NCBI RefSeq assembly: GCF_000970025.1
Contig: NZ_CP009528.1
Span: 3,025,168-3,089,167, forward strand
DNA: 64,000 bases
Direction: 5' to 3'
Origin: Methanosarcina barkeri MS
GTDB lineage: Archaea > Halobacteriota > Methanosarcinia > Methanosarcinales > Methanosarcinaceae
The notes under the pieces are model-generated. The model saw only the letters and a program-made list of their open reading frames with translations. It was not told the DNA's origin and ran no database searches. Position numbers and translations under genes: made by a program. Below are positions 13,355 to 55,489 of this stretch, one piece after another. How positions within the stretch are numbered: position 1 is the first letter of the stretch; each line of letters opens with the position of its first letter.

Positions 13355-13391
13355 TTAAAGCTCCATATTTTTATATTACGATTTTTACGTT

Positions 13392-13475
13392 ACAATTTTT
13401 ACACTACAATTTTTACACTACAATTTTTATACTACAATTTTTACACTACAATTTTTATACTACAATTTTTACACT
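13392..13475. repeat. 14-bp minisatellite upstream of the stress protein gene
   Basis: About six copies of ACAATTTTTACACT, with TACACT/TATACT variation. It sits 40-120 bp upstream of the minus-strand Usp start. Confidence 0.85.
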
Positions 13476-13916
13476 ACATTGTACAACTCTTATTCCGGAG
13501 CTTTCTATTACATCTTTGGAAATCTCTCTTGTGCAGACATTTGTATGTTTTTGGCTCTTCGTTGTTTTGTGTGGATATCCTCGTAATGTCTTCATAAAAA
13601 CCAATGCGGTCTCGAATTGAAAATCATCTTATCCACAGGGAATGACAAAGAGCCTGTTTATTCACACCTGATGGGAAAATACATCTCCCAATACTGATAT
13701 AGAGAGTCATATATAAATTACTTTTTCATTAAGTGTTATTATTTACTAATTAGATTCCCTCATCCCTGATATGCAACAAAAAATAATATTGTTTTAATAT
13801 TATTTTACTGTTTTAATTCAGTATATTAGCTATATAGGGACAAAAAGTCCTCGAAGTTGAATTTATTCTCGACCATTCTGACACAAAAAGGAATTCTTTT
13901 TTTGCATACCAGAACG

Positions 13917-20833: not shown

Positions 20834-20910
20834 ACCCTTTAGGAGAACTACAGTTTAAACCCGAGTTTATATATTTTGAACCTGACATCCACTCAATTCA
20901 TTTCCGATTC

Positions 20911-21150
20911 ATAACTGAGAGTCGATTTTCAGGTTCATAAGTCAGAACTCATTTCAGGTTTATAACTGAGAGTCGATTTTCAGGTTCATAAGTCAGAACT
21001 CATTTCAGGTTTATAACTGAGAGTCGATTTTCAGGTTCATAACTGAGGTTAACTTTAGATTTAGAACTGAGATTAACTTCAGATTTAGAACTGAAATTAA
21101 CTTCAGATTTAGAACTGAAATTAACTTCAGATTTAGAACTGAAATTAACT
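20911..21150. repeat. Two adjoining minisatellites, 51 bp and 24 bp units
   Basis: A 51-bp unit beginning ATAACTGAGAGTCGATTTTC recurs at 20911, 20962 and 21013. It then gives way to a 24-bp unit, beginning AGATTTAGAACTGA, at 21057, 21081, 21105 and 21129. The two units share the AACTGAGATTAA core, so the second probably grew out of the first. They lie in the 760-bp spacer before pyrG, which otherwise shows only AT-rich DNA. Confidence 0.9.
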
Positions 21151-21596
21151 TTTTAACCCGAGGTGAAAATTCACTTCAGGAGCATAAGTAAGACTTCATC
21201 TTGTTCAAAACTGAGAAAATCATGGAACAATCCATTATGGGCATTCATAAATATTTATAATTGCAGAATAACCTGAAAACAAGAAAATTGTACTTTTCTG
21301 TATCTTATTTTCCTTCACTCCAGGCTTTTCAGTCCGCCGGCACTTTAGCTATTACTTAAAGAATTCTATTTCATTTGGGTCTATTCTCTTACTTTCACTT
21401 CTTATTTGAGTCTGTTCATTTTTAGAAGTTGAGAGTAATTTTTATATCATGAAGATATTGGTATTGTGTTCGTACCAGAGGATTAATGACAGATTTCTTA
21501 TACATTACTAATTTAATTATTTCCTGTCTAACTCCGTATAATATCCTTTAGCAGTCTGAAACTACTATTAGGAAAACCTAGTGAGGAAGCTTATCC

Positions 21597-23201
21597 ATGA
21601 AGTATATAATAGTTACCGGTGGGGTGATGAGCGGGCTTGGGAAAGGCATTACCATCGCATCCATTGGCAGAAACCTTAAAAACAAAGGTTATAAAGTTAC
21701 GGCTATCAAGATCGACCCTTACATCAATATTGATGCAGGCACCATGAGCCCCTACCAGCATGGGGAAGTTTTTGTGCTCAAGGACGGAGGTGAAGTGGAC
21801 CTGGATCTTGGGAATTACGAGCGGTTCCTTGATACTGAACTTACAAGGGACCATAACCTTACCACAGGCAAGGTCTACTTAGAAGTAATTTCCAAAGAGA
21901 GGAGAGGAGACTACCTGGGAAAAACAGTTCAGATCATTCCCCATGTCACAAACGAAATCAAAAGCAGGATCAGGAAGGTCGCTGCTCGGAGTGGAGCCGA
22001 TATATGTCTTATTGAAATCGGAGGGACTGTTGGGGACATTGAAAGCATGCCTTTCCTCGAAGCTGTACGCCAGATGCACAGAGAAGAACCTTCCGAAAAT
22101 GTCGCATTTATTCATGTCACCCTGGCTATGGAAGACCTTCAGGGAGAGCAAAAAACCAAGCCTTCCCAGCACTCCGTAAAGGAACTTCGTGCCCTTGGGC
22201 TCAGTCCTGAAGTAATCGTTGTAAGATCAAAGTCACCTCTTCAGGAAAGCGCCAAAGAGAAAATTGCCCTCTTTTGTGATGTGCCACAGGAACTGGTTAT
22301 CAGCGCTCATGACGCCAATGATATTTATGAAGTGCCTCTTGAGATAGAAGAGCAGGGATTAACCACCCAGCTCATGAAACACCTGCAACTTGAGTCCAAT
22401 GTCGAAAACGGTGCATGGAAAGAGATGGTTGCAAGGATGCACTCTACAACCAACACGGTTAAACTTGCAATTGTTGGAAAATATACCAATCTTGAGGACT
22501 CTTACCTCAGCATCCTTGAAGCTGTCAAGCATGGAGGAATTGACAACGGATGCAGAGTTGAAGTCAATATGGTTGAAGCCGAAATTCTGGAAGAAAATCC
22601 AGCCGAGGTTGAGAAGCTAATACAGTATGATGGGATTCTTATTCCGGGCGGTTTTGGTGGGCGAGGCACAGAAGGCAAGATGACGGCAATTAAATTCGCC
22701 AGGGAAAACGATATTCCGTTCCTTGGAATCTGCCTGGGCATGCAGCTTGCAGTCATCGAATTTGCCAGAAATGTGGCTAAACTCAAAGGAGCAAACAGTA
22801 CGGAATTTGATGAAGATACCCCTTACCCTGTGATTGATCTCCTGCCTGAGCAGACCAGTGTTGCAGAAATGGGCGGAACCATGCGCCTTGGGGACTATGA
22901 AGCCATCCTTACAGAAGGCTCTATTGCCGCTAAAATCTACGGGACCAATTACATTGTTGAACGCCACCGCCATAGGTATGAGGTTAACCCGGAGTTTGTT
23001 GACAGGCTTGAGTCTTATGGCATTGTCTTTTCCGGTAAAAACAAGAACAGGATGGAAATTGCCGAGATTCCTGGCAAGCGTTTCTTCTTTGGTTCCCAGT
23101 TCCATCCTGAGTTTAGATCACGGCCTGGAAGACCGTCTCCTCCATTCAATGGTCTCGTCGCGGCAATGTGCAAATACAGAAAGGAAAGAGAAGGACGATA
23201 A
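21597..23201 (+). CDS. pyrG: CTP synthase
   Basis: A 534-residue, full-length CTP synthase. The N-terminal synthetase domain starts with [17 protein letters not shown] (P-loop) and has [20 protein letters not shown]. The C-terminal class I glutaminase domain has the nucleophile Cys in GICLGMQ and the His/Glu pair in FHPEF. It makes CTP from UTP with glutamine nitrogen in pyrimidine synthesis. It forms, with pyrE at 25.2 kb, a scattered pyrimidine cluster. Confidence 0.98.
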
Positions 23202-26680: not shown

Positions 26681-27982
26681 ATGAAAATTTTGCTTATCGG
26701 CGGAGGCGGAAGGGAACACGCAATCGCCGAGGGAATCAAGAAAAGCAAGCATAATCCCTCTCTTTATGCGTTAATGGCGAAAAAAAATCCCGGAATTGCT
26801 TCCCTCTGTGAGGACTTTTTCCTTGAGAAAGAAACTGAAGTTGAAAAAGTTGTTGAGTACGCAAAAGCCAGAAACATCGAAATGGCTTTTGTAGGCCCTG
26901 AAGCCCCTCTTGCAGCAGGAGTTGCAGATGCCCTCTGGAAAGCAGGAATTCCGGTTGTAGGGCCTAAAAAAGCCTGTGCAACTATAGAATTTGACAAGGC
27001 CTGGGCAAGAAATTTCATGAAAAAATATGAAATCAAAGGCTGCCCTGCATATGAAGTTTTCACAGAGGAAAAACCTGCGCACGATTTTATAGAAAAACTG
27101 GGCGACGTGGCAGTCAAGCCCTCAGGTCTGACAGGAGGCAAAGGCGTAAAAGTTATGGGAGACCAGCTCCCTGACCTAGAAGCCGCCAAAGCCTACACAA
27201 GTGAGCTGCTTGAGAAAGGGCCTGTAGTCATTGAGGAACGCTTTATAGGAGAGGAGTTTACGCTTCAGGCCTTTGTAGACGGAAAAAGCCTTGTTTTCTT
27301 CCCTGCAGTGCAGGACCACAAAAGAGCCTATGAAGGAGATCTCGGACCCAATACAGGCGGTATGGGTTCATACACTGATGCCGGAGAAATCCTGCCTTTT
27401 ATGCTCCCTGAAGACCTTGAGAAAGCAAAGAAGATTATGAAGGATACCGTAAAGGCGCTTTCTGAGGAAACCGGGACCGGATATCAGGGTGTTCTCTATG
27501 GGCAGTTCATTCTTACAGCCAGCGGTCCCAAGGTAGTGGAATTCAATGCTCGATTCGGTGACCCCGAAGCAATGAATGTGATCTCTCTCCTTGAAACAGA
27601 CTTCGTGGATATCATGTCTGCAGTGGTTAAAGGGACTCTTGGAAATTTGCCTGTAAGCTTTAGCAAGAAAGCAACTGTCTGTAAATATGCAGTTCCTGCC
27701 GGTTATCCAGAAAATCCTGAAAAAGACAGCGAAGTAACTGTAGGAAACATAGGGGATGCGTCCATTTATTATGCCAGTGTCTACGAAAAAGAAGGAAAAG
27801 TTTACACAACCAGCTCCCGCGCAATTGCAGTTATTGGGATTGCTGAAACTATAACTGCAGCCGAAAAAATTGCCCAGAATGCCCTTGAAAATCTCCACGG
27901 CAAGCTATTTTTCCGGAAAGACATTGGGACTGCCGCTCTTATCCAGAAGAGAATTGACCATATGAAAGAACTTAGAGGCTAA
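26681..27982 (+). CDS. purD: Phosphoribosylamine-glycine ligase
   Basis: A 433-residue ATP-grasp enzyme of purine synthesis that joins phosphoribosylamine and glycine. [13 protein letters not shown] is the N-terminal hallmark, followed by the ATP-grasp [13 protein letters not shown] and [11 protein letters not shown]. The frame extends to 26558, but ATG 26681 directly precedes the domain and follows GGAGA by 6 bases. Confidence 0.97.
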
Positions 27983-27989
27983 TTGCCGA

Positions 27990-28286
27990 AAATAAGGCTA
28001 ACTGCTGAAAGTAAGGCTAACTGCTGAAAGTAAGGCTAATTGCCGAAAATAAGGCTAACTGCTGAAAGTAAGGCTAATTGCCGAAAATAAGGCTAACTAC
28101 CTGAAATGTTCTGCAAAAGTACAGCGTGCAAATAAGTACTATGCAGTAGTATAAACTAAAATTCAACCAGAATGAAGTAATTTCGGTTAAAAAAGAGAAA
28201 CTCAGCTTGAATGAAGAAATTCAGCTTGAATGAAGTAAATTCAGCTTGAATGAAATAAATTCAGCTTGAATGAAGTAAATTCAGCT
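27990..28286. repeat. Two tandem repeat arrays between purD and argF
   Basis: First, alternating TAATTGCCGAAAATAAGGC and TAACTGCTGAAAGTAAGGC units (about 27980-28100). Second, about five copies of a 20-bp unit TTCAGCTTGAATGAAGTAAA (about 28201-28286), ending just before the argF start. The 18-bp array at 26.3 kb shares the CTGAAA core. Confidence 0.85.
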
Positions 28287-42168: not shown

Positions 42169-42379
42169 GTTAGTCGGATGGCTCAACAATGACAATCTTT
42201 TGCTCTGCTGTCGAGTTTCCTTGCAGGTTTTACCCGTGTTGCCATGAAGCCGGTTACAGCATTCGGGGTTGGTGTAGTTGGTCAGAGCAAAATATTTATT
42301 TCAGCTTTTGCAAACCCGGAAACGCTATTCCAGCCACACACAAACACTAAAAAAGAACTTGATGATATCACAGACTTCC

Positions 42380-42586
42380 TTCGGACGCAGCTCAGTTTTC
42401 ATCCTTGCCATGGTACTCAATGGTCTTGGTTTCATAGATCAACGTTTGTGTCTTTATCCTGATTTTTTAAGGAATATTTCTACAGAAAGACTCTTTAGAG
42501 AAAGTGTAACAAAAAAAGACCTGAATCAAAACTTACGAATACTAAAGATACACCAGAAATTTTGTGAGGGCATTATCTCTCTTTAA
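42380..42586 (+). pseudogene. IS1634-type transposase N-terminal remnant
   Basis: The frame reads ILAMVLNGLGFIDQRLCLYP, then FLRNISTERLFRESV and DLNQ. This is the DUF4277-like N-terminus of IS1634-family transposases. The remainder of the enzyme is absent, and the frame runs into the 3' end of the signal peptidase gene. A decayed IS fragment with no recognised ends. Confidence 0.6.
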
Positions 42587-43055
42587 TTTGTCCAATAATA
42601 TTGGATACTTCTTGCATGATCAATATAACCGCAGGAAAGATCACGAGTGCTAAAAACCCCTTTTTAGTACTTGCAATATGAACGAGTAACCCAACGTATG
42701 GGATTTTAAAAAACAGAGTTCCTACCAGATCTTCAGGAGCTACCGTATAACCATCAGGTTTGGTGTATGCATCTCCCTGAGTTATGTATCCTTCATCTAC
42801 AACTTTGACTACTCTGTGAGTAACTATGTATCTCTGATTTTTACCGAATATATGGTAATAGGATACAATATCCCCAACATTTGGCTGGGTTTCCAAAGTA
42901 TTTACTACAATTATATTGCTTTCTGTTATAGTTGGTTCCATACTGTTTCCTGTTACAGTCATGAATTTGACTGGCCCGGTAGGAATCATAGTAGCAATAA
43001 TGGGCATGACTATAATGAAGATTAAAATAAAAGCAAGAATATTTATGACTTTCAT
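42573..43055 (-). CDS. Archaeal type I signal peptidase
   Basis: A 160-residue S26B peptidase. A membrane segment at about 5-24, catalytic Ser in GNSMEPT (about residue 38), His in VTHRVV (about 80) where bacterial enzymes have Lys, and Asp in the GDAY/KPDG region (95-101). A second hydrophobic stretch lies near 116-150. This is the archaeal/eukaryotic Ser-His-Asp type, related to SipW, which frees TasA-type precursors. The surrounding locus encodes such precursors. Confidence 0.9.
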   Translation of the reverse strand: MKVINILAFILIFIIVMPIIATMIPTGPVKFMTVTGNSMEPTITESNIIVVNTLETQPNVGDIVSYYHIFGKNQRYIVTHRVVKVVDEGYITQGDAYTKPDGYTVAPEDLVGTLFFKIPYVGLLVHIASTKKGFLALVIFPAVILIMQEVSNIIGQIKER

Positions 43056-43278: not shown

Positions 43279-43977
43279 TTAATCAGCTCCATTACCAGTT
43301 ATCTCTTCGAATCCTTCAGTAGGTGAATTCTGACTACCTCTACATCTCATATTGAAAGTACAAGAAGACCCTTGATAGTGATTATCAGCATCATCAGCAA
43401 ATTTGCCTTCAATTATGAGGCCCCAATCCTTATGATCTCCCGCTTTGAGGATAGGAGGGAAAATACCAAAGATAATAGGACTGAGACAATAAGCAACAAA
43501 TTTCGCACTGCAGAACTCTGTAAGAGTCAGGGTACCATCACGATTGCCTACTACACTACCAATGAAGTCAGCTCTATTTCCCCAAACTAAATTTGAGCCA
43601 TCCCGTGTGATATGTCCAGTGACCTTTGTTATTATAATTTTATCCGAGAGTTTTATGCCTCCTGTGCCACCAGAGTTGGTTAAATCTTCAGGGTACATAT
43701 ATAGATGGTTAATATTTACTGATCCAACATTTGTAAAACGGAGTTCGTTACCAAATGTATCTCCTGGCTTGAAATTTGCTGGAGATGTCCAGGTAGCAGT
43801 CACACCGTCCGTGTAAGTTGAGCCATCATTAGATAACTTCATGTCCAGAGTTCCAGATGAAAATGTATTCCCAGTACTTGTTTCAGTATCCTGGAACGCT
43901 GCCCATGTTCCCGCGCCTGCCAGAGTTACAGCTATGCCAAGTGCGAGTATACTCACAAGCACTCTTTTATTAGCCAT
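43279..43977 (-). CDS. Secreted SipW/TasA-type surface protein A
   Basis: A 232-residue secreted protein. The N-terminus is a hydrophobic helix ending in AGAGTWAAFQDTETS, followed by GNTFSSGTLDMKL. This is the pattern of SipW-cognate precursors (TasA, camelysin-like). The mature part is a beta-sandwich with a Pro/Gly loop and Cys pairs near 155 and 165 and near 207 and 212. Removal of the leader is expected from the peptidase encoded 220 bp downstream. A role as fibre subunit is inference. Closest in motif to the proteins at 44385 and 45039. Confidence 0.7.
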   Translation of the reverse strand: MANKRVLVSILALGIAVTLAGAGTWAAFQDTETSTGNTFSSGTLDMKLSNDGSTYTDGVTATWTSPANFKPGDTFGNELRFTNVGSVNINHLYMYPEDLTNSGGTGGIKLSDKIIITKVTGHITRDGSNLVWGNRADFIGSVVGNRDGTLTLTEFCSAKFVAYCLSPIIFGIFPPILKAGDHKDWGLIIEGKFADDADNHYQGSSCTFNMRCRGSQNSPTEGFEEITGNGAD

Positions 43978-44384: not shown

Positions 44385-44990
44385 TTATTTCTGCTTCATT
44401 TCAAATCTCATTGTTAATGTGGTTGCGTCTCCCTGATATTCATTTGGAGCATTTATATCGAAACTAACCTCCATATTAAAGTCATTATTTGAAGACCCAG
44501 CCACAGGCCTACCTGTAACATCGAGGGAAGTGGGTGCTGGCGCAGGGAGATTATCAAGCGTAAAGCCGTTAAGATCCGCCAGGTCAATGAATCCATTGCC
44601 ATTACTGTCACTGACATAACTTAACAGATTCATAGGTGTCCCGGATGAGTATGGAGTGTACTTCATCGAATCCACTTTCAGATAACTATCCATCCCCAGC
44701 TCAGTGCACTCGGTTGCAAATGTGATCTTCACCTCCAACTTATCTGCTTCCATGGTCCCTATATTGTATATATTTAGCTGACCAGGTATAGAGGACATTC
44801 CAGGAACCATGTTTATGAGCGTCCACTCTTCGTTGATGTCAGGACCGTTATCTTCCATGTACAGATCCATTGTTCCCGCAGTAAATACCTCTCCTGAAGC
44901 TGTCTCAACATCAGTGTAAGAAGCCCATGTACCTGCAGAAGCTAGAAGAAGTACAAAAGAGATTAACAGAACTGAAGGTATCAATTTCAT
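44385..44990 (-). CDS. Secreted SipW/TasA-type surface protein B
   Basis: A 201-residue relative with leader MKLIPSVLLISFVLLLASAG, then TWASYTDVETASGEVFTAGT. The mature part is acidic and beta-rich. SDSNGNGFIDLADLNGF resembles an EF-hand-like calcium or dockerin-type loop (DxNxNGxxDxxD), which the other two lack. It follows protein C by 48 bp on the same strand, so the two are probably co-transcribed. Confidence 0.7.
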   Translation of the reverse strand: MKLIPSVLLISFVLLLASAGTWASYTDVETASGEVFTAGTMDLYMEDNGPDINEEWTLINMVPGMSSIPGQLNIYNIGTMEADKLEVKITFATECTELGMDSYLKVDSMKYTPYSSGTPMNLLSYVSDSNGNGFIDLADLNGFTLDNLPAPAPTSLDVTGRPVAGSSNNDFNMEVSFDINAPNEYQGDATTLTMRFEMKQK

Positions 44991-45038: not shown

Positions 45039-45569
45039 TTAAGCCTGATCCAGAGTAAACTCAGTATCAAAAGTAGTTTTGTCTGTCTGAATGCTATTGT
45101 CAGCATCGTCAACTTCATAAGTTAATACTATATCTTGATTACTTCCAGCCCCAAGAGCTCCAATTGACATAGCTGTATCAGGAATTACTTCAATACCATT
45201 TGCATAGATCGTCAAGTGACTGCTAAGTTCACCAACAGCGTCAGTGTCGCCCATCTTAGACTCAGGGTCATTGACACCATTTTCATCATCTTCAATGTTA
45301 ATTATTTTAAGAGACAGCGTTCCATCAATTGTACCAGCATTCTCCACATTTATTGTTCCTATGGTACCTGTGTCTAGAGGATATACATTATCTACAGTCA
45401 ATGGTAGAGATGTTCCTACGCCTCCCACTACCAGATCTAATGTTCCAGCAGTAAAAGTGTTATCATTACTTGTTTCAGTATCACTGAATGCTGCCCATGT
45501 CCCAGCACCTGCAACGGTGGCAACTACACCGAGAATGAGTATGCTTAAAAGTGTTTTCTTGTTAAACAT
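45039..45569 (-). CDS. Secreted SipW/TasA-type surface protein C
   Basis: A 176-residue protein with leader TLLSILILGVVATVAGAGTW followed by AAFSDTETSNDNTFTAGTLD. The mature region has TIGTINVENAGTIDGTLSLKI and a C-terminal DIVLTYEVDD strand typical of TasA/M73-like beta-sandwiches. It is the most compact of the three. No catalytic residues for the camelysin-type peptidase assignment can be seen, so a structural role is more likely. First gene of the two-gene unit with protein B. Confidence 0.72.
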   Translation of the reverse strand: MFNKKTLLSILILGVVATVAGAGTWAAFSDTETSNDNTFTAGTLDLVVGGVGTSLPLTVDNVYPLDTGTIGTINVENAGTIDGTLSLKIINIEDDENGVNDPESKMGDTDAVGELSSHLTIYANGIEVIPDTAMSIGALGAGSNQDIVLTYEVDDADNSIQTDKTTFDTEFTLDQA

Positions 45570-45712: not shown

Positions 45713-45833
45713 GCTCATTTGAAGTGCTCATCTGAGTTACTCATTTGAAATGCTCATCTGAGTTACTCATTTGAAATGCTCATCTGAGTTACTCATTTGA
45801 AGTGCTCATCTGAATTACTCATCTGAGTGATTC
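45713..45833. repeat. 26-bp minisatellite
   Basis: About four copies of a 26-bp unit starting GCTCATCTGAGTTACTCATT, between the surface protein C start and the duplicated spacer element. Confidence 0.85.
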
Positions 45834-45993: not shown

Positions 45994-46240
45994 AACAATA
46001 CTGTTTTTGTTTTTAATAAGAGATCAGTTATTTTTATCTAATATGCCCAAAGAAGATCATGGTACGGAGGGAAAGACACAAGCTAACTGCCGCAGGAATG
46101 GGCGTGGAAAATTTTGAAAAAACAAAAATTTAAGAGATTGCTGTCAGCTTAATGGAAAATTACCGACACTGTGAGACGGTGAAGAACTTTCAGGAAAAAA
46201 GAGAAAAAGAACTGGGAATTTTGAGCATAAAGGAACATGC

Positions 46241-46780
46241 TCAGAGTTTTCGGACGTGGCGCATGTGAGCTGTCGAAGATATTATGAAAAGACTGCTCAT
46301 AAAAAGCATCCACTGATTGCTTGTAACCAACTCAAAAAGTCCCAAATAAATTGTGACACTTCCGACTACAGCAAGGGTGCTCAGGCCAACATAGAAATGG
46401 CTCCATGGGATATCCCCTTTCTTGACGGTTTCCATATAGATATCAAAATTACTGGCTGCAGGGAGTAGTTCTACAAAGTCATTTTCCCGGTCGTGGTTGA
46501 CAACCCCCAGGCTCTCCATCTTGGGTATGTGGGTCTGGAGAAGGGAGACATATATGCTTTTTCTGATAGTGCTTTTTGGATCGTCTTCGCCAGACTCTAG
46601 GCGAGCTATTTCCTCAGAAAGAGAACGTATGCTCTGATTTCCTTGCGTGCGGAGAATTTCCAGAACATATCTTCGTCTGTCATTCTGGAGGACTCCAAAA
46701 ATATCACTTTTTGATAACTGTGCTTGATGGCTCTGGATATCGGCTTTGATTTCCAGAGGATTGTTTACTGTCTCGCTCAC
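46241..46780 (-). CDS. Membrane-anchored winged-helix regulator, copy 1
   Basis: A 179-residue protein. Residues of about 20-110 look like a winged-helix domain (SDIFGVLQNDRRRYVLEILR and SIRSLSEEIA), as in archaeal DUF7344-type proteins. Two membrane segments follow (about 126-146 and 150-170). A membrane-tethered DNA-binding sensor is the likely role. The gene at 52441-53016 is a near-identical copy. The two flank the surface-protein locus, suggesting they regulate it. Confidence 0.75.
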   Translation of the reverse strand: MSETVNNPLEIKADIQSHQAQLSKSDIFGVLQNDRRRYVLEILRTQGNQSIRSLSEEIARLESGEDDPKSTIRKSIYVSLLQTHIPKMESLGVVNHDRENDFVELLPAASNFDIYMETVKKGDIPWSHFYVGLSTLAVVGSVTIYLGLFELVTSNQWMLFMSSLFIISSTAHMRHVRKL

Positions 46781-47638: not shown

Positions 47639-48715
47639 CTGGAAACCATTTTTCTTAAACTTAAAAACATCTTAATAGACAGGTGGAAACTTCTTACCTT
47701 TGCATTTCTATTAATGATTGTTTTTTCTGGACTCTGGATGTATGAAGAATACACAGGAGTATCATATGAAGAAAAAAAAGTTATTTCCTATACGCAGCGT
47801 GGAAATTATACATATTCAGCTCCTGTAACTAAGCCAAATCCCCTCTACCCGGAAGGAACCAGGCTTGAGATGGGAAAACCGGCGTATTTTTTTACAGTAT
47901 CTCCAACCATGGACGTTTCATTCATATACAGACTTGACGCCACAAGTTCTACTGACCTCAATGTGGAGGCTAAAACGATGATTGTGGCAAGTGACAAAGA
48001 GGGATATGGAGAAGAGCAGAATGGGGAAGGGCAAAAAATATTCTGGCAGAAGAGTTATCAGGTTGGCGATTCAAAAAGTGCTCATTTGAAAAATGCGGAT
48101 GTCTTTACTTCTAATTTTACCTTAGATATACCTAAGATCCAGGAACAAACTAAAAAAATAGAGGATCAGTTGAATTATACTTCGAATCCGACGATAGAAA
48201 TTGTTACTGTAATCAACTATGAAGGAAAAATAAATGGAAAAGATGTCACAGGTACACAAAATTTTGCCATCCCTGCCAACATTAGTTCTACTTATTATCA
48301 GATGCCTGAAGAACTTGGGTTTGTCAAAGACACGTATAAAAATATCAGAGTTCAAAAAGACCCTTCACCATCAACAATCAAATTTCCTATATTCTTATTC
48401 CTGTTAAATACAGTTCTAATAGGAGCGCTTATTCCCATCAGGAAAATGAAAAAAATTGATCCGGAATACATCAAAAAACTGGAAAACGAAAGTAAAAATT
48501 CATCTTTTAAAGAATTTATCAGTAAAGGCAAAATTCCCGAAAACAGGAGTTCTCTTCTACAGGTTGAAATTTCTTCACTCGAGGATCTTGTAAACGCTGC
48601 TTCTGATATGAATGAAAGGGTAATTCACGATGCCGGATCTGGAGAATATTTCATAATTCACAATGAAGCATTGTATATTTTTTGGGATAAAACTTCAAAA
48701 GAAAATATAAGATAG
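47639..48715 (+). CDS. DUF5305-like membrane-anchored protein
   Basis: A protein of about 358 residues with one N-terminal membrane segment (WKLLTFAFLLMIVFSGLWMY), an extracellular beta-rich domain and a second segment near the C-terminus (FPIFLFLLNTVLIGALIPI), then a cytoplasmic tail. This matches the architecture of DUF5305, which I recall near archaeal signal peptidase genes. ATG 47714 would cut the first segment. The rare CTG at 47639, eight bases after AAAAAGGAG, gives the full helix, and no ATG, GTG or TTG lies in frame upstream. Probably a partner of the surface-protein machinery. Confidence 0.6.
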   Translation: METIFLKLKNILIDRWKLLTFAFLLMIVFSGLWMYEEYTGVSYEEKKVISYTQRGNYTYSAPVTKPNPLYPEGTRLEMGKPAYFFTVSPTMDVSFIYRLDATSSTDLNVEAKTMIVASDKEGYGEEQNGEGQKIFWQKSYQVGDSKSAHLKNADVFTSNFTLDIPKIQEQTKKIEDQLNYTSNPTIEIVTVINYEGKINGKDVTGTQNFAIPANISSTYYQMPEELGFVKDTYKNIRVQKDPSPSTIKFPIFLFLLNTVLIGALIPIRKMKKIDPEYIKKLENESKNSSFKEFISKGKIPENRSSLLQVEISSLEDLVNAASDMNERVIHDAGSGEYFIIHNEALYIFWDKTSKENIR

Positions 48716-48791: not shown

Positions 48792-49530
48792 GCATTGTTA
48801 ACTAATTATAGCTATCTCTTTATTTCTATGTTTCATCAATAGAAGAACAGAGTACTTTAGCATATCAATACTCTTCGTATAACATTTTGTCTTTCGTCTC
48901 AACCTTGCCAGAAAGTGCCTCAATATGCCGTTATACCCTTCAACTGTATACGTTTCGGCTTTGGATTGAGTATGAATATTTTCTGGAAGAAACTCTGCAT
49001 ATGCTCTCCAGTGATCTGTCATCACTTCTCCAATCTCTTTCTGCTTTAATTTTTCCCATATTAGTTGTCCAGTTTTCGTTCCTCTGTTGCCAAAAGCGCA
49101 GTTGATGAATTTTTTCCCAACTCTATCAACAGCAATCCAGATCCAGCAATATTTTTTTTGTTACCGATGTAAGTGTGCATCTCATCCATTTCAACAATAG
49201 ATATCTCATTTTCGCTTTTTAGGTCCTCCAACTCCTGACCAAATTTCTTTATCCATTTTTGGACAGAAACATGACTTACTCCTAAAAATCTTCCTATTGA
49301 GCGAAATCCTAACCCTTCAAGATAGAGTTGCAAAGCCTGTCTCTTAATAGAGGGGGAGCTAGCAGTTGATTTTACCTCTACGGTATAGTTATATCCACAA
49401 TCATGGCATTTGTAGCGTTGACGTCCACAAACTATGCCATTCTTTTTGTGAGTGGAACTATTACACCTTGGGCAGTTCATATAGAAATATAGGTTCTCAT
49501 AATATATAACTATAGTTAACTACCAAAGCT
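48792..49530 (-). mobile_element. IS1-family element with 9-bp target duplication
   Basis: 739 bp bounded by imperfect inverted ends (GCATTGTTAACTA / AGCTTTGGTAGTTAACTA) and flanked by TTATTTTGG at 48783-48791 and 49531-49539. Length, duplication size and the two-frame transposase match IS1. Confidence 0.75.
48798..49480 (-). CDS. IS1-type transposase in two overlapping frames
   Basis: The first frame (49480-49061) has a zinc finger CPRCNSSTHKKNGIVCG...CHDCG and a helix-turn-helix (GFRSIGRFLGVSHVSVQKW). The second carries the DDE part (YCWIWIAVDRVGKKF, TDHWRAYAEFLPE, YNGILRHFLARLRRK). The switch falls at a run of eight A (minus strand, near 49154-49161). A -1 slip at A AAA AAT would join them, as known for IS1 InsAB'. 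Either programmed frameshifting or a one-base loss explains it. Confidence 0.75.
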
Positions 49531-49591: not shown

Positions 49592-50677
49592 TTAGATCAG
49601 ATGAAACGTCCTTTTCCACTGTTCAAACCGACGGCGGAACTTAATCTGATTCTTTCTGCCAACAGTCGATTTTCTGTACCATAAGGGCAGCAAAAACAGC
49701 ACAGAAAAGCAAGTGTAAAGCCCAATCTCTGCAAGAGCAGGGAAATAGGGATTTATTTCCGAAAGGGAAATTATCCAGAAGATAGGCAAAATGTAAGGAA
49801 CAGAGATGACCGTTGCGGGAGTTTCTTCCGGAACTGTTACTTGAGTCTCATTAGCCGGGGTAATCACTCCATACCAGAAATTAATTGCAATTCTTTGTTC
49901 ATAATCATCAGGGGTTAAAACATATACCTGAGACAGAGATTCCTGATTCTTTATTATTGTATTCTTCTCCAGAACTACATGCCCGTTTTCCCCAAGATTA
50001 TGCGCCACGACACCTGTAAAAATAAGCCCGCTTATAAGAATAAACGCTGCCAGCCTTTTTCTTTTAACTACATAAGAAGTTCTCCTAGCAATTTTTTTTT
50101 GTTCCTTTTCCACTTTTCGAGCTTTGGCTGGATTGCTGTACAGAAGCATAGTCCTTATTTCATCGAGAATTATCAGACCTGCAGGCAGTATGACTGTGAA
50201 GAGTAAAATATTTTTATTTTTCTTTACTGCATCGGGCAAGTACCCTGCAAAAGGAATAACGAATATCAACTTTCCCTTAATATTCGGTGCAGGTACCTTA
50301 AAGTCGTCCTGTGCGTTATTTGCATCTCCTTTAGTCTGGAATCTACGCTCTTTTCCTTCTTCTAAGGAAATAATCCGATGCGTTACTAGAGTATTTTCCT
50401 TTGTTACTACAGCACTGTCCTTTGTTGCTACAGTATTTTCCCTTCCAGGAGGATGAAAAGCTATTACATCACCGACCTTAAGCTCACTTGGATCAACTGA
50501 TTTCTCAATGATCATATCTCCAGGTAGCATCATCGGAGTCATACTCCCGCTCAACACTATAAGAGGCATCATTGAGCCTGTATAGAATGGAATTAAGGTC
50601 TTGACCAGAAAAATAGCAATAAGCAGAATAATTGTTGCCTGGAGAATATCTTTTTCCTTCATATTTTTCATTTCCAC
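49592..50677 (-). CDS. Signal peptidase with C-terminal extension
   Basis: A 361-residue S26B peptidase. N-terminal membrane helix, catalytic Ser in LSGSMTPMM (about residue 45), His in LVTHRII (about 100), Asp in TKGDANNAQDD (118-125). Beyond residue 190 it has a long extension with at least two further membrane segments and an extracytoplasmic loop that is absent from typical SipW. Just before the catalytic His there is a short heptad repeat (ENTVATK, DSAVVTK, ENTLVTH). The gene lies 41 bp downstream of the PKD gene, so it is probably its processing enzyme. Confidence 0.88.
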   Translation of the reverse strand: MEMKNMKEKDILQATIILLIAIFLVKTLIPFYTGSMMPLIVLSGSMTPMMLPGDMIIEKSVDPSELKVGDVIAFHPPGRENTVATKDSAVVTKENTLVTHRIISLEEGKERRFQTKGDANNAQDDFKVPAPNIKGKLIFVIPFAGYLPDAVKKNKNILLFTVILPAGLIILDEIRTMLLYSNPAKARKVEKEQKKIARRTSYVVKRKRLAAFILISGLIFTGVVAHNLGENGHVVLEKNTIIKNQESLSQVYVLTPDDYEQRIAINFWYGVITPANETQVTVPEETPATVISVPYILPIFWIISLSEINPYFPALAEIGLYTCFSVLFLLPLWYRKSTVGRKNQIKFRRRFEQWKRTFHLI

Positions 50678-50718: not shown

Positions 50719-52119
50719 TTATTCATTCACGGAAATATGGCCTGTTTTTGTACTCTGGCTATTCACATTAGCTGCAGTAAAGGTGACAATGTACTTTCCT
50801 GTTGCTGTGTAAGTATGCACAGGGTTCTGCTCAGTTGAAATAGCTCCGTCTCCAAAGTCCCAGTTCCATTCTTCTGCATTTTCCGAGAGATCGGTAAACT
50901 GTACTGTTAGGGGAGCAGTTCCAGAGGTAACATTACTGCTGAAGTTTGCTATCGGAAGAACGGGCTGAAGGGCAAATATTGTGGAAAATGTCGAATTTGT
51001 ACCATTCACGTTGCTTACTTCAAGCGTCGCTGTGTACTTTCCTGTTGCTGTGTAAGTATGCACAGGGTTCTGCTCAGTTGAAATAGCTCCGTCTCCAAAG
51101 TCCCAGTTCCATTCTTCTGCATTTTCCGAGAGATCGGTAAACTGTACTGTTAGGGGAGCAGTTCCAGAGGTAACATTACTGCTGAAGTTTGCTATCGGAA
51201 GAACGGGCTGAAGGGCAAATATTGTGGAAAATGTCGAATTTGTACCATTCACGTTGCTTACTTCAAGCGTCGCTGTGTACTCTCCTGTTGCTGTGTAAGT
51301 ATGCACAGGATTCTGCTCAGTTGAAATAGTTCCGTCTCCAAAGTCCCAATTCCATTCTTCTGCATTTTCCGAGAGATCGGTAAACTGTACTGTTAGGGGA
51401 ACATAACCTTCGGTGACGCTATTACTAAAAAAAGCTTTAGGAAGGATTCCTTCACCATTGTCAGAATCCCCGAATCCGCCATCACCGCCAGAGCCGGAAC
51501 CCACACCTGAAACTATGCTGCCTGTGCTGCCACTGGCTTCTTCTAGGGAAACGGTCCTATCTAAGTCAAATGTATTGGTCAGGTTGGCGGAACCAGTAAG
51601 ATTAGTATGATTAGTATTATTGGTAAGATTAGTATGATTATTGGTAAGATTAGTATGATTATTGGTAAGATTAGTATGATTATTGGTAAGATTAGTATGA
51701 TTATTGGTAAGATTAGTATGATTATTGGTAAGATTAGAATTACTAGCAAGGTTAATGCGATAAGTAGGGTTAAAGGTCTCGTTTGCTTTTATAGAGGAAT
51801 TATTCATCGGATTACCCGGTGCTTCTGCCAAACTTGCGCTATTCACAGGAGAATTGAGATTTTCCAAAGAATTTATGGTTACTCTTATTGGGTCGTCAGT
51901 AGTATTCTGGAGTTCACTACCGTTTATGGCCAGATCGAGATCAGGTACCCCAATCACACCAGGTAAATTATCCCAGAAGCCTGTATTGATCCTAGTATTT
52001 GCGTACTTAGTATCACTGAGAGAAGCAGATGTACCTGTAAAAGCTGGAAATTTATTGCATGTGAAGATAAGAGAGATAAACACCATTCCTAAAAGTAATG
52101 TTTTGAAAGATGTTCTCAT
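50719..52119 (-). CDS. PKD-repeat surface protein with sequon tract
   Basis: A 466-residue secreted protein. The leader ends FTGTSASLSDTKYANTRINT, a variant of the TasA-type start in this locus. A low-complexity tract (about residues 130-175) contains six or more NLTNNHT units, then a Gly/Ser/Asp linker. Three PKD domains fill about 230-466, each with WNWDFGDG. They are encoded by a 243-bp tandem repeat, the second and third units nearly identical. Probably a cell-surface adhesion or matrix protein. Confidence 0.85.
   Translation of the reverse strand: MRTSFKTLLLGMVFISLIFTCNKFPAFTGTSASLSDTKYANTRINTGFWDNLPGVIGVPDLDLAINGSELQNTTDDPIRVTINSLENLNSPVNSASLAEAPGNPMNNSSIKANETFNPTYRINLASNSNLTNNHTNLTNNHTNLTNNHTNLTNNHTNLTNNHTNLTNNTNHTNLTGSANLTNTFDLDRTVSLEEASGSTGSIVSGVGSGSGGDGGFGDSDNGEGILPKAFFSNSVTEGYVPLTVQFTDLSENAEEWNWDFGDGTISTEQNPVHTYTATGEYTATLEVSNVNGTNSTFSTIFALQPVLPIANFSSNVTSGTAPLTVQFTDLSENAEEWNWDFGDGAISTEQNPVHTYTATGKYTATLEVSNVNGTNSTFSTIFALQPVLPIANFSSNVTSGTAPLTVQFTDLSENAEEWNWDFGDGAISTEQNPVHTYTATGKYIVTFTAANVNSQSTKTGHISVNE
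51613..51735. repeat. 21-bp repeat encoding N-glycosylation sequons
   Basis: Five to six units of ATTATTGGTAAGATTAGTATG in the plus strand; in the reading strand each encodes NLTNNHT, with sequons N-L-T and N-H-T. Confidence 0.85.
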
Positions 52120-52440
52120 TTTTGATTACCACCTATATTATTTATTTAATACCCCATAACACAAATATGCCTGTAATATTCGTAAGAATCAGCGTCCTGA
52201 AATTTTGATTCCACATCACCGCATTGAAATTAAAAATTTTTCAAATATAGCCCTTTAAAGTTGTATGTCTACAGCCTGACTATTAATTTTGAAGTCAAAG
52301 ACGTTTAAAACCAAATATTTAAAGCCCAAATTTAACTGTGAAGTCTAATGCCATTATTTTTCTTCAAATGCGTAAATATTGAGATCTGAAATTAACTGCC
52401 AATGAATATATAGAGAAATTTTGAACATAAAGGAACATGC

Positions 52441-53016
52441 TCAGAGTTTTCGGACGTGGCGCATGTGAGCTATCGAAGATATTATGAAAAGACTGCTCAT
52501 AAAAAGCATCCACTGATTGCTTGTAACCAACTCAAAAAGTCCCAAATAAATTGTGACACTTCCGACTACAGCAAGAATGCTCAGGCCAACATAGAAATGG
52601 CTCCATGGAATATCCCCTTTCTTGACGGTTTCCATATAGATATCAAAATTACTGGCTGCAGGGAGTAGTTCTACAAAGTCATTTTCCCGGTCGTGGTTGA
52701 CAACCCCCAGGCTCTCCATCTTGGGTATGTGGGTCTGGAGAAGGGAGACATATATGCTTTTTCTGATAGTGCTTTTTGGATCGTCTTCGCCAGACTCTAG
52801 GCGAGCTATTTCCTCAGAAAGAAAACGTATGCTCTGATTTCCCTGTTTGTGAAGAATTTCCAGGACACATCTTCGTCTGTCGTTCTGGAGGATTCCAAAG
52901 ATATCACTTTTTGATAACTGTGCTTGATGGCTCTGGTTATCTGCTTCGATTTTCAGAGAATTATGTTCTGTTTTGACTTTATTAAGAACTTGCCTGATTA
53001 GATGGACATAACACAT
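52441..53016 (-). CDS. Membrane-anchored winged-helix regulator, copy 2
   Basis: A 191-residue duplicate of the protein at 46241-46780, near-identical from about residue 30 onward (same winged helix and two membrane segments). The N-termini differ: here MCYVHLIRQVLNKVKTEHNS, with a Cys and a basic patch. The matching DNA extends beyond the gene ends at both sides. Confidence 0.75.
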   Translation of the reverse strand: MCYVHLIRQVLNKVKTEHNSLKIEADNQSHQAQLSKSDIFGILQNDRRRCVLEILHKQGNQSIRFLSEEIARLESGEDDPKSTIRKSIYVSLLQTHIPKMESLGVVNHDRENDFVELLPAASNFDIYMETVKKGDIPWSHFYVGLSILAVVGSVTIYLGLFELVTSNQWMLFMSSLFIISSIAHMRHVRKL

Positions 53017-53914
53017 ATTGTATTCCTCTGAAGCATAAGTTAAATCATGGCATCGCTCTCCAGAATCATGATCAACACCTTATTCTGAATTAACTGGATA
53101 TAATAATTGCATAATAACAATCATTTTTTGACAGTTGTATGTTAATCACCATTAATTCAAAAAAGCTAGAATTCAAGAGTTTTGATCAAAAAGAAACAAT
53201 AATAAATTCCGTCAACGTTTAAAGTCCAAAGCTTCTAATTTTTGATTTCAACCTTATGAACTCTAGTAAATAATTAATGATGATTTCGTATACAAATTAT
53301 AATATTCTCTTCAAATTTAAGGGAGAATTTTCTCGTTCTAGATGTATTCAATGATTTTGTTATACACTTTCAAACTTTAACGAATTGCTTGAGAATGCTT
53401 TTAAAACTTGGTTAAATTCTTAAATTTCCAATAAATATGCGAAATTTACTTTTTCCCACATGATTTGAAGAAGATTCAAATTACGAGAATTTATTCTATA
53501 ATGAAATTTAACTTCACAACTATTTAACGTTATAAATATTCAAATTATAACTATTCGACGTCATAATTATACAACTTTAGAACTACTGCACATTGCAACT
53601 ACCTAACATTGTGATTATTTAACTAGATACTATAAAAAAATATCGAAATAAACATATACGAGTTATTGGCAAAGATAAAGACCAATCATTGTTGTTAACG
53701 TTTAAAGATTAAAGTTTGCATAGCATTTTTAAAGCTAGAGATAAAATATTCCAATCGGCTAAATATACAATAGATTTGTCGTAAAGTTGTAAAGTTTAAT
53801 ATTTGAGAAGTGGTGTAGTTGAGAAGTGGTGTAGTTGAGAAGTGGTGTAGTTGAGAAGTGGGATAGCTATGAAGTCAAATATGCCTTTTAAGTATATTTT
53901 TAAACTTGGTTATA

Positions 53915-54103: not shown

Positions 54104-54458
54104 CTTGGTCATATTTGTTGTATCCTGAAATGAGTTCGCAGACTCAAAGCCATTTGGAAGTCAAATACATAATACAACAGCAAGCAACGCAAAATGTTAA
54201 ACGTTTAGTAAATTCCAACTCTATTTTTATATTGTGGAATGGTTACGTAAAATGAAACAAATTCGAAGATAGAGTATAATAGTAGGCTACATATATGAGA
54301 TATGTAGCTGCAATAAAAAAATTAAAAAAACGAAATGATTTTGGAATAAAAACCGTGCTTTCCGTGTTTTTCATAGTTGTAATATCCAAATTGAATCACT
54401 CCTCGCTCGGATGCGTTTTTAGTATTACAGAATTCCATGTGACTTGAAAATAATATTT

Positions 54459-54588
54459 GAGTTCATCCCAAAACTTGAAATTTGCTTCTTAGACTGTGTA
54501 TTTTGAATAATCAATCAATCTTATGATCATAAAAATAATTCTGAGAATTCCCAATGATTAAGAGTAAAGTGGCTTTTGGGATAGACTC
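54459..54588. mobile_element. TIR element family 2, copy B (130 bp)
   Basis: Bounded by GAGTTCATCCCAAAA and, inverted, GAGTCTATCCCAAAA. Same length as the copy at 23962 and clearly homologous. Confidence 0.6.
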
Positions 54589-55489
54589 TTTACGTAATAA
54601 GCTGTAATTATTTTCTTATTATGTATTTATTTGAGAATCAATACATTAGATTTTGGAACGCAGTCTAATCGGTCTTAAAATGAAATCTGATTTTAAAATT
54701 GGAAAGGGGTTGAGAAGCGATTTCTTTGTGAAAATTTAACTGGAGTTTAAGATTTTACTGTATACACATCGAACAACAAATATAATATGAAATGTAACGA
54801 AAATTAGTCTGTTGGATAACAATTCGAAACATTTTAATATAAAACCATAGGATATAAACATAAAACAGCGAATAAAAATTATAATAAAATAAAAATTATA
54901 ATAAGATAAAAAGAGACGTTAGAATAAAAAGTGGAATATTGGATAGCAAATCAAACTGTTTTATTATTGTATATAAAAAGCATAAGGAAATACATTTTGA
55001 ATGAAATTAGATGGTTAATAATAAGATTTAAAGAATTAAACACAAGTAAAGGCAGTAGTGTATTGATTTTTCTGTAAAATTACAAATCTTAAGAGATCTC
55101 TGGGAAGAAAATACAGCTTCAGAAAAATTTACAATTACAGTCAGGAAAAATTTGGTATTGAATCCACAGCAAATTCGCAGTATTTTCTAAATAAATATAC
55201 GTAACTAGTTCCATCAAAATCATTTGTTAAAAATTGAAAGAAAATATTTGGCGAACAAATCAAATTGCGTGCGGACACTCCACCCTAAACAGGCGGTCTG
55301 ACAATCATTGTTAGTAATAAAAAGTAATATAAAAAGCAAATAAAGCCTTTAAATTAAAAAAAGAATTCTTTTATTACTGAAAATAATTGTCAGATAGCTT
55401 ATGGAGGACAGGGTGTTCGTGACCCTCTGCGCTCCCGATGTGAGAAAAAATGTAATTAATTTATAATTTACACAAAGCGAAGTTAAATT

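Follow-up and report, generated by a model that had tools for sequence, protein, structure and literature searches.

A probably recent in-frame 21-bp minisatellite encodes a dense run of N-glycosylation sequons within a linker of a surface protein, probably of biofilms, in Methanosarcina barkeri MS

A gene of Methanosarcina barkeri MS for a PKD surface protein contains a tandem array in which every repeat unit encodes N-glycosylation sequons. Does this array form a glycosylated spacer that turnover of in-frame repeats lengthens and shortens, or did repeats simply grow neutrally in a linker that tolerates them? We examined the locus within a 64-kb stretch of the genome (the window) and compared it with the genomes of relatives, one per species, giving 30 genomes of the genus with that of the window included. 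The features of the locus are collected in Table 1.

Table 1. Features of the host gene and its surroundings, in window coordinates.
Feature	Position	Strand	Basis or remark
Host gene, 466-aa PKD surface protein	50719-52119	minus	ORF list, PKD_4 match
First 50 residues, with signal peptide and motif FTGTSASLSDTKYANTRINTGFW, TasA/TapA-like	51970-52119	minus	TIGR04087, hhalign
Sequon-rich linker, residues 51-222, 20 N-x-S/T	51454-51969	minus	Shuffle control, AF2
Exact 21-bp tandem array, 5.8 copies, residues 129-168	51616-51737	minus	TRF, codon listing, shuffles
PKD repeats in a 243-bp tandem duplication (98% matches)	50790-51400	minus	TRF
SipW-like archaeal signal peptidase I, 361 aa, next gene downstream	49592-50677	minus	TIGR02228
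Small SipW-like signal peptidase	42573-43055	minus	
Three TasA/camelysin-like SipW-dependent genes	43279-43977, 44385-44990, 45039-45569	minus	PF12389, TIGR04088
DUF5305 gene	47714-48715	plus	Family match
Accessory segment	42392-55953		Absent in G004 (272 bp there instead)

The product of the host gene is a probable biofilm surface protein. Its description as a PKD protein in a sequence-only reading of this DNA was correct: three PKD domains occupy residues about 223-466 (PKD_4, 2.5e-49), and the PF18911 model scores 165.7 bits over three stretches against a gathering cut-off of 27. The AF2 pLDDT of the PKD part is mostly above 90. The protein is likely to be exported, judging from its N-terminus. 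Between N-terminus and PKD domains lies the linker, which ends in a Gly/Ser-rich stretch. The word stalk, applied to it earlier, is an interpretation; the AlphaFold model has no confident fold there, with pLDDT under 50 nearly throughout.

TRF scored the array at period 21 with 100% matches and 0% indels. Residues 129-163 consist of NLTNNHT five times over, each copy with the same codons (AAT CTT ACC AAT AAT CAT ACT), and one partial unit follows. After the exact units the array decays as NLTNN-TNHT-NLTGS-ANLT. The longest exact lag-21 match in the ORF is 101 bases, a length reached in 0 of 2000 codon shuffles of the ORF (at most 12) and in 0 of 2000 codon shuffles of the linker (at most 14), and the array is therefore not due to chance. 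No longer exact periodic run occurs in the window at any lag from 9 to 60. The copy number could be an assembly error. A plus-strand open frame across the array (51607-51966) was rejected as an antisense artefact of the repeat.

TRF, the codon listing and the shuffles confirm the in-frame tandem 21-bp array that the sequence-only reading had placed in the PKD protein. Its estimate of six or so copies holds for the tandem repetition and is replaced by five exact copies plus one partial for the count, and its start at 51560 should be 56 bp higher, the additional bases coding for the degenerate end. The sequon density that it gave, more than ten in about 45 residues, was well judged, since the densest 45-residue stretch of the protein holds 13 N-x-S/T sequons; residues 129-179 hold 15. 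Other PKD ORFs of the same genome have at most 6 per 45 aa (n = 23, from 20 sampled stretches). Sequon content varies widely among the PKD ORFs of the genome (L182, L186, L188, and others), the extremes being 0 in 1012 aa (L182) and 28 in about 468 aa (the host protein).

The N-terminus of the host protein resembles those of TapA and TasA. Against the TapA model TIGR04087 it scored 12 bits (E 0.11), with the whole protein below the 80-bit cut-off; nine of the ten orthologs described below match at E <= 1, the best at 1.6e-5. The model of the SipW-dependent signal peptide, TIGR04088 (cut-off 19 bits), had no match in the host protein and matched seven of the ten orthologs at E <= 1, the best at 0.0022 (18.1 bits in G003). 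In an hhalign comparison, a profile of the N-termini aligned with the TasA-like proteins of the locus such that GAGTWAAFQDTETSTGNTFSSGTLDM lay against FTGTSASLSDTKYANTRI-NTGFWD, at the expected place (P 0.0005, probability 32%). According to the available part of PMC9674648, the segment of TasA aligned here is the donor strand joining subunits, and TapA is thought to supply the first strand for TasA. From these roles and the alignment we infer that the PKD protein may dock via its N-terminus on TasA-like fibres.

A SipW-like peptidase, TasA-like genes and a putatively exported protein occur together here, as in a locus of the TapA-SipW-TasA type. The 361-aa peptidase scores over the cut-off of TIGR02228 (1e-26) and below that of the SipW model NF046067 (1.5e-18). 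PF12389 and TIGR04088 are both over cut-off in all three TasA/camelysin-like genes; an AF2 model of the one at 43282-43977 had a pLDDT of 33. A DUF5305 gene recurs beside the large SipW-like gene in relatives, where it was recognised by eye. Three paralogous loci (L080, L079, and L162) contain TasA-like genes, small and large SipW genes and a DUF5305-like gene, and also encode a non-PKD protein with an N-terminus of the shared family and an acidic tail. Two DUF7344 genes (46217-46762 and 52417-52962) are direct repeats, 96% identical over 546 bp and 6.2 kb apart, and recombination between them would delete the DUF5305, SipW-like and PKD genes. An IS1-family transposase-like ORF of 139 aa lies within the accessory segment at 49061-49480, its match covering only part of the model.

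An accessory island of about 13.6 kb carries the array, as is seen from the genes flanking the island, which lie together in the two nearest relatives. These were ranked among the 29 other Methanosarcina genomes by a housekeeping gene at 21597-23201, which we take to be CTP synthase, and are G004 (95%) and G029 (94%); G025, whose copy is cut, was left unranked. In both genomes, searches for the PKD N-terminus (E <= 0.001) and for the SipW-like gene (E <= 1e-10) gave no match. The flanks at 42391 and 55954 are 272 bp apart in G004. In G029 the flanks at 42208 and 55962 are 839 bp apart, placing the island boundaries there at 42209 and 55961. Within these 839 bp, 143 bp match window positions 54453-54593 at 73%, which blurs the right boundary of the island.

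A search with the N-terminal half (225 aa) matched 13 of the 30 Methanosarcina genomes. Ten PKD-type orthologs were kept, that of the window included; G010 and G021 were dropped as low-complexity or stop-ridden matches, and G019 was dropped as its protein shares the N-terminus family and is missing the PKD part. The N-terminus profile matched 15 of the 111 genomes of the family. The SipW-like gene, found in 12 of the 30 genomes, adjoins the PKD gene at every one of the ten ortholog loci (it is broken in G005). The PKD gene of G012 is split over two contigs.

The closest ortholog, from Methanosarcina sp. UBA11020 (G025), has a linker without the array (NPTYPVNLTNNTNLTGS) that reads NPTYPVNLTNNTNLTGSANLTD at the array position, which means that the array was gained in the lineage of the window or lost in that of G025. 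The linkers of G022 (STD2_179) and G009 contain 18-bp arrays with the words NLTNIT, NLTDSA, and NLTSST. Other words occur in G005, G003, G027, and G014, and in G012 a DQDNS repeat runs off the contig end. Repeat type and number at the linker differ between species, and between-species turnover is thus supported. The earlier proposal that slippage changes copy number without a frame break is partly borne out, by the in-frame unit and by these differences in array type and number. Related species have another repeat here, or no repeat, so the array region is probably a fast-changing spacer with a putative sugar coat.

As expected of an N-glycoprotein, sequons in the putatively exported part coincide with oligosaccharyltransferases in the genome, where four archaeal STT3/AglB genes score over the curated cut-off. 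In M. mazei, glycosylation is proven for the S-layer protein and for other surface proteins, and a candidate AglB has been detected, according to the part of PMC4350412 at hand. In a proteome study of M. barkeri MS, a response to the iron and sulfur source is reported for PKD surface proteins (accessible part of PMC10846266). At a spacing of 3-4 residues, it is unlikely that all linker sequons are used.

The reading that we favor, to which we give an even chance, is that the linker is a glycosylated spacer whose length is changed by in-frame repeat turnover. On this view the array would be an in-frame minisatellite of recent expansion, and the protein whose linker holds it would be a PKD adhesin that is secreted and processed by SipW. 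SipW-type cleavage would expose the N-terminal strand, which would dock the protein on TasA-like fibres or on the cell surface. A subset of the linker sequons would receive N-glycans from at least one of the four AglB enzymes, and these glycans would stiffen, hydrate, and protect the linker, making of it a spacer that presents the PKD head. Gain or loss of whole 21-bp (or 18-bp) units would alter this spacer between lineages with the frame unbroken, selection retaining the N-x-S/T sites and filler residues drifting.

Neutral slippage in a tolerant, disordered linker rich in Asn and Thr, with the sequons as a by-product of that richness, is a serious rival to which we would assign a lesser but substantial probability. 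The five identical copies are what recent neutral growth would leave and fit it equally well. Satellites are also abundant: 1908, mostly with short units, are reported for nine Methanosarcina in the part of PMC6749651 available to us. TRF found 33 distinct tandem arrays in the window (46 rows reduced by hand, with a gene list chosen by hand), and the period is divisible by 3 in all six arrays inside genes, against 7 of the 27 outside or partly outside them. Minisatellites outside genes are numerous, and for most of them the period is not a multiple of 3; examples are at 13367-13478, 20898-21151, 27976-28286, 45714-45826, and 53785-53875.

What argues against neutral slippage is the sequon content of the linkers, which in most of them exceeds that expected from composition. 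N-x-S/T counts were compared with 5000 residue shuffles of each linker, a control with dipeptide bias outside its model. No shuffle reached the count in the linkers of the window (20 sequons, 8.4 expected), G022 (19, 7.6), G009 (23, 10.1), G005 (13, 4.5), and G014 (14, 6.1). One did so for G025 (11, 4.1), and seven each for G003 (11, 5.4) and G027 (11, 5.1). Sequons are therefore in excess in eight of the ten linkers (at most 7 of 5000 shuffles), and the same eight remain in excess when tandem copies are collapsed (at most 14 of 5000). There was no excess in G018 (6 against 4.1, 878 of 5000) or in G012, whose linker is cut by the contig end (6 against 4.7, 1574 of 5000). In nine of the ten linkers, G018 being the exception, sequons outnumber the reversed motif S/T-x-N, and the sequon is kept across different repeat words. 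The ten linkers are not independent, because those of G003 and G027 are near-identical. An apparent preference for sequons in the linker is nonetheless supported by these counts.

It is improbable, in our estimate, that the chemistry of the linker is mainly something other than N-glycosylation, either that of a plain polar spacer or that of an O-glycosylated Thr/Ser linker. The 172 residues are indeed rich in these amino acids, with 23 Thr and 18 Ser, but the preference for the order N-x-S/T over S/T-x-N speaks against these alternatives. A structural heptad, coiled coil or helix, is very unlikely: the period is 7 and AF2 draws a helix over residues 129-166, but at a pLDDT of about 33-48, with one leucine per heptad among Asn and Thr, and with hexads at the same place in G022 and G009.

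A wider search, with the linker array and then a G022 array as queries, found sequon arrays with different words in unrelated Methanosarcina surface proteins. Proteins that we take to be of the YVTN type carry them in G022, G009, G001, G010, G007, and G028, with words such as GPETNVT, EPETNVT, VPEENIT, IPEDNVT, and EPEAETNIT. The words in these YVTN-type proteins (L201, L202, L203, L204, L205, L165, and L166) differ in each species, and there are up to 27 sequons in 206 residues. An INLTNIE array is present in G025, and a lipoprotein-like ORF in the M. barkeri MS genome has a 21-bp TTSNSSS array of 11.3 copies (L207, G000:C2:2707100-2707339). A sequon step of 7 is the clear majority in 9 of the 11 measured arrays (G007 and G028 are mixed), but this period is biased by the search, whose queries also repeated every 7 residues. 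The range of words that keep the sequon is less affected by this bias and more telling than the period.

More tentatively, and with some doubt on our part, Methanosarcina may repeatedly build spacers of a glycan-brush kind on surface proteins unrelated to one another (TapA-like PKD adhesins, YVTN propeller proteins, and lipoproteins) from in-frame, often 21-bp, sequon minisatellites with species-specific words. Slippage would then tune coat length and glycan load, and selection would keep at least one sequon per unit.

If the spacer reading is true, it would give an archaeon a simple genetic means of adjusting the sugar coat and reach of an adhesin, and the tuning could be tested in genetically tractable Methanosarcina. 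The locus points to TasA/TapA-like fibre loci in methanogens with a putatively glycosylated PKD adhesin, and would link aggregation and biofilm growth of industrially important methanogens to a defined accessory island. That surface proteins of Methanosarcina contain tandem repeats is already known. What is new is confined to the sequon-bearing arrays and their location on a TapA/TasA-like island, because satellites are well known in the genus (PMC6749651, in the part available). Literature searches found nothing on this PKD protein or on such sequon arrays.

Compared with known systems, the locus shares in-frame arrays in surface genes with the Methanosarcina repeats described in the available parts of PMC2447325 and PMC6749651, which include PKD-size repeats near 246 bp. 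Those repeats differ in being longer domain repeats, and sequon arrays are not mentioned in these parts. The M. mazei S-layer protein MM1976 and other Methanosarcina N-glycoproteins likewise are exported proteins glycosylated in the genus (PMC4350412, in part), although MM1976 is a different protein from the 466-aa PKD protein. As in the archaeal bundling pili of Pyrobaculum, there are TasA-like subunits in an archaeon (PMC9674648, in part). With the TapA/TasA/SipW fibre system of Bacillus subtilis the locus has in common SipW-like peptidases, TasA/camelysin-like genes, and a TapA-like N-terminus. To our knowledge, B. subtilis TapA has no PKD repeats or sequon array. The score of the PKD protein falls far short of the TapA cut-off, and any fibres encoded here are putative.
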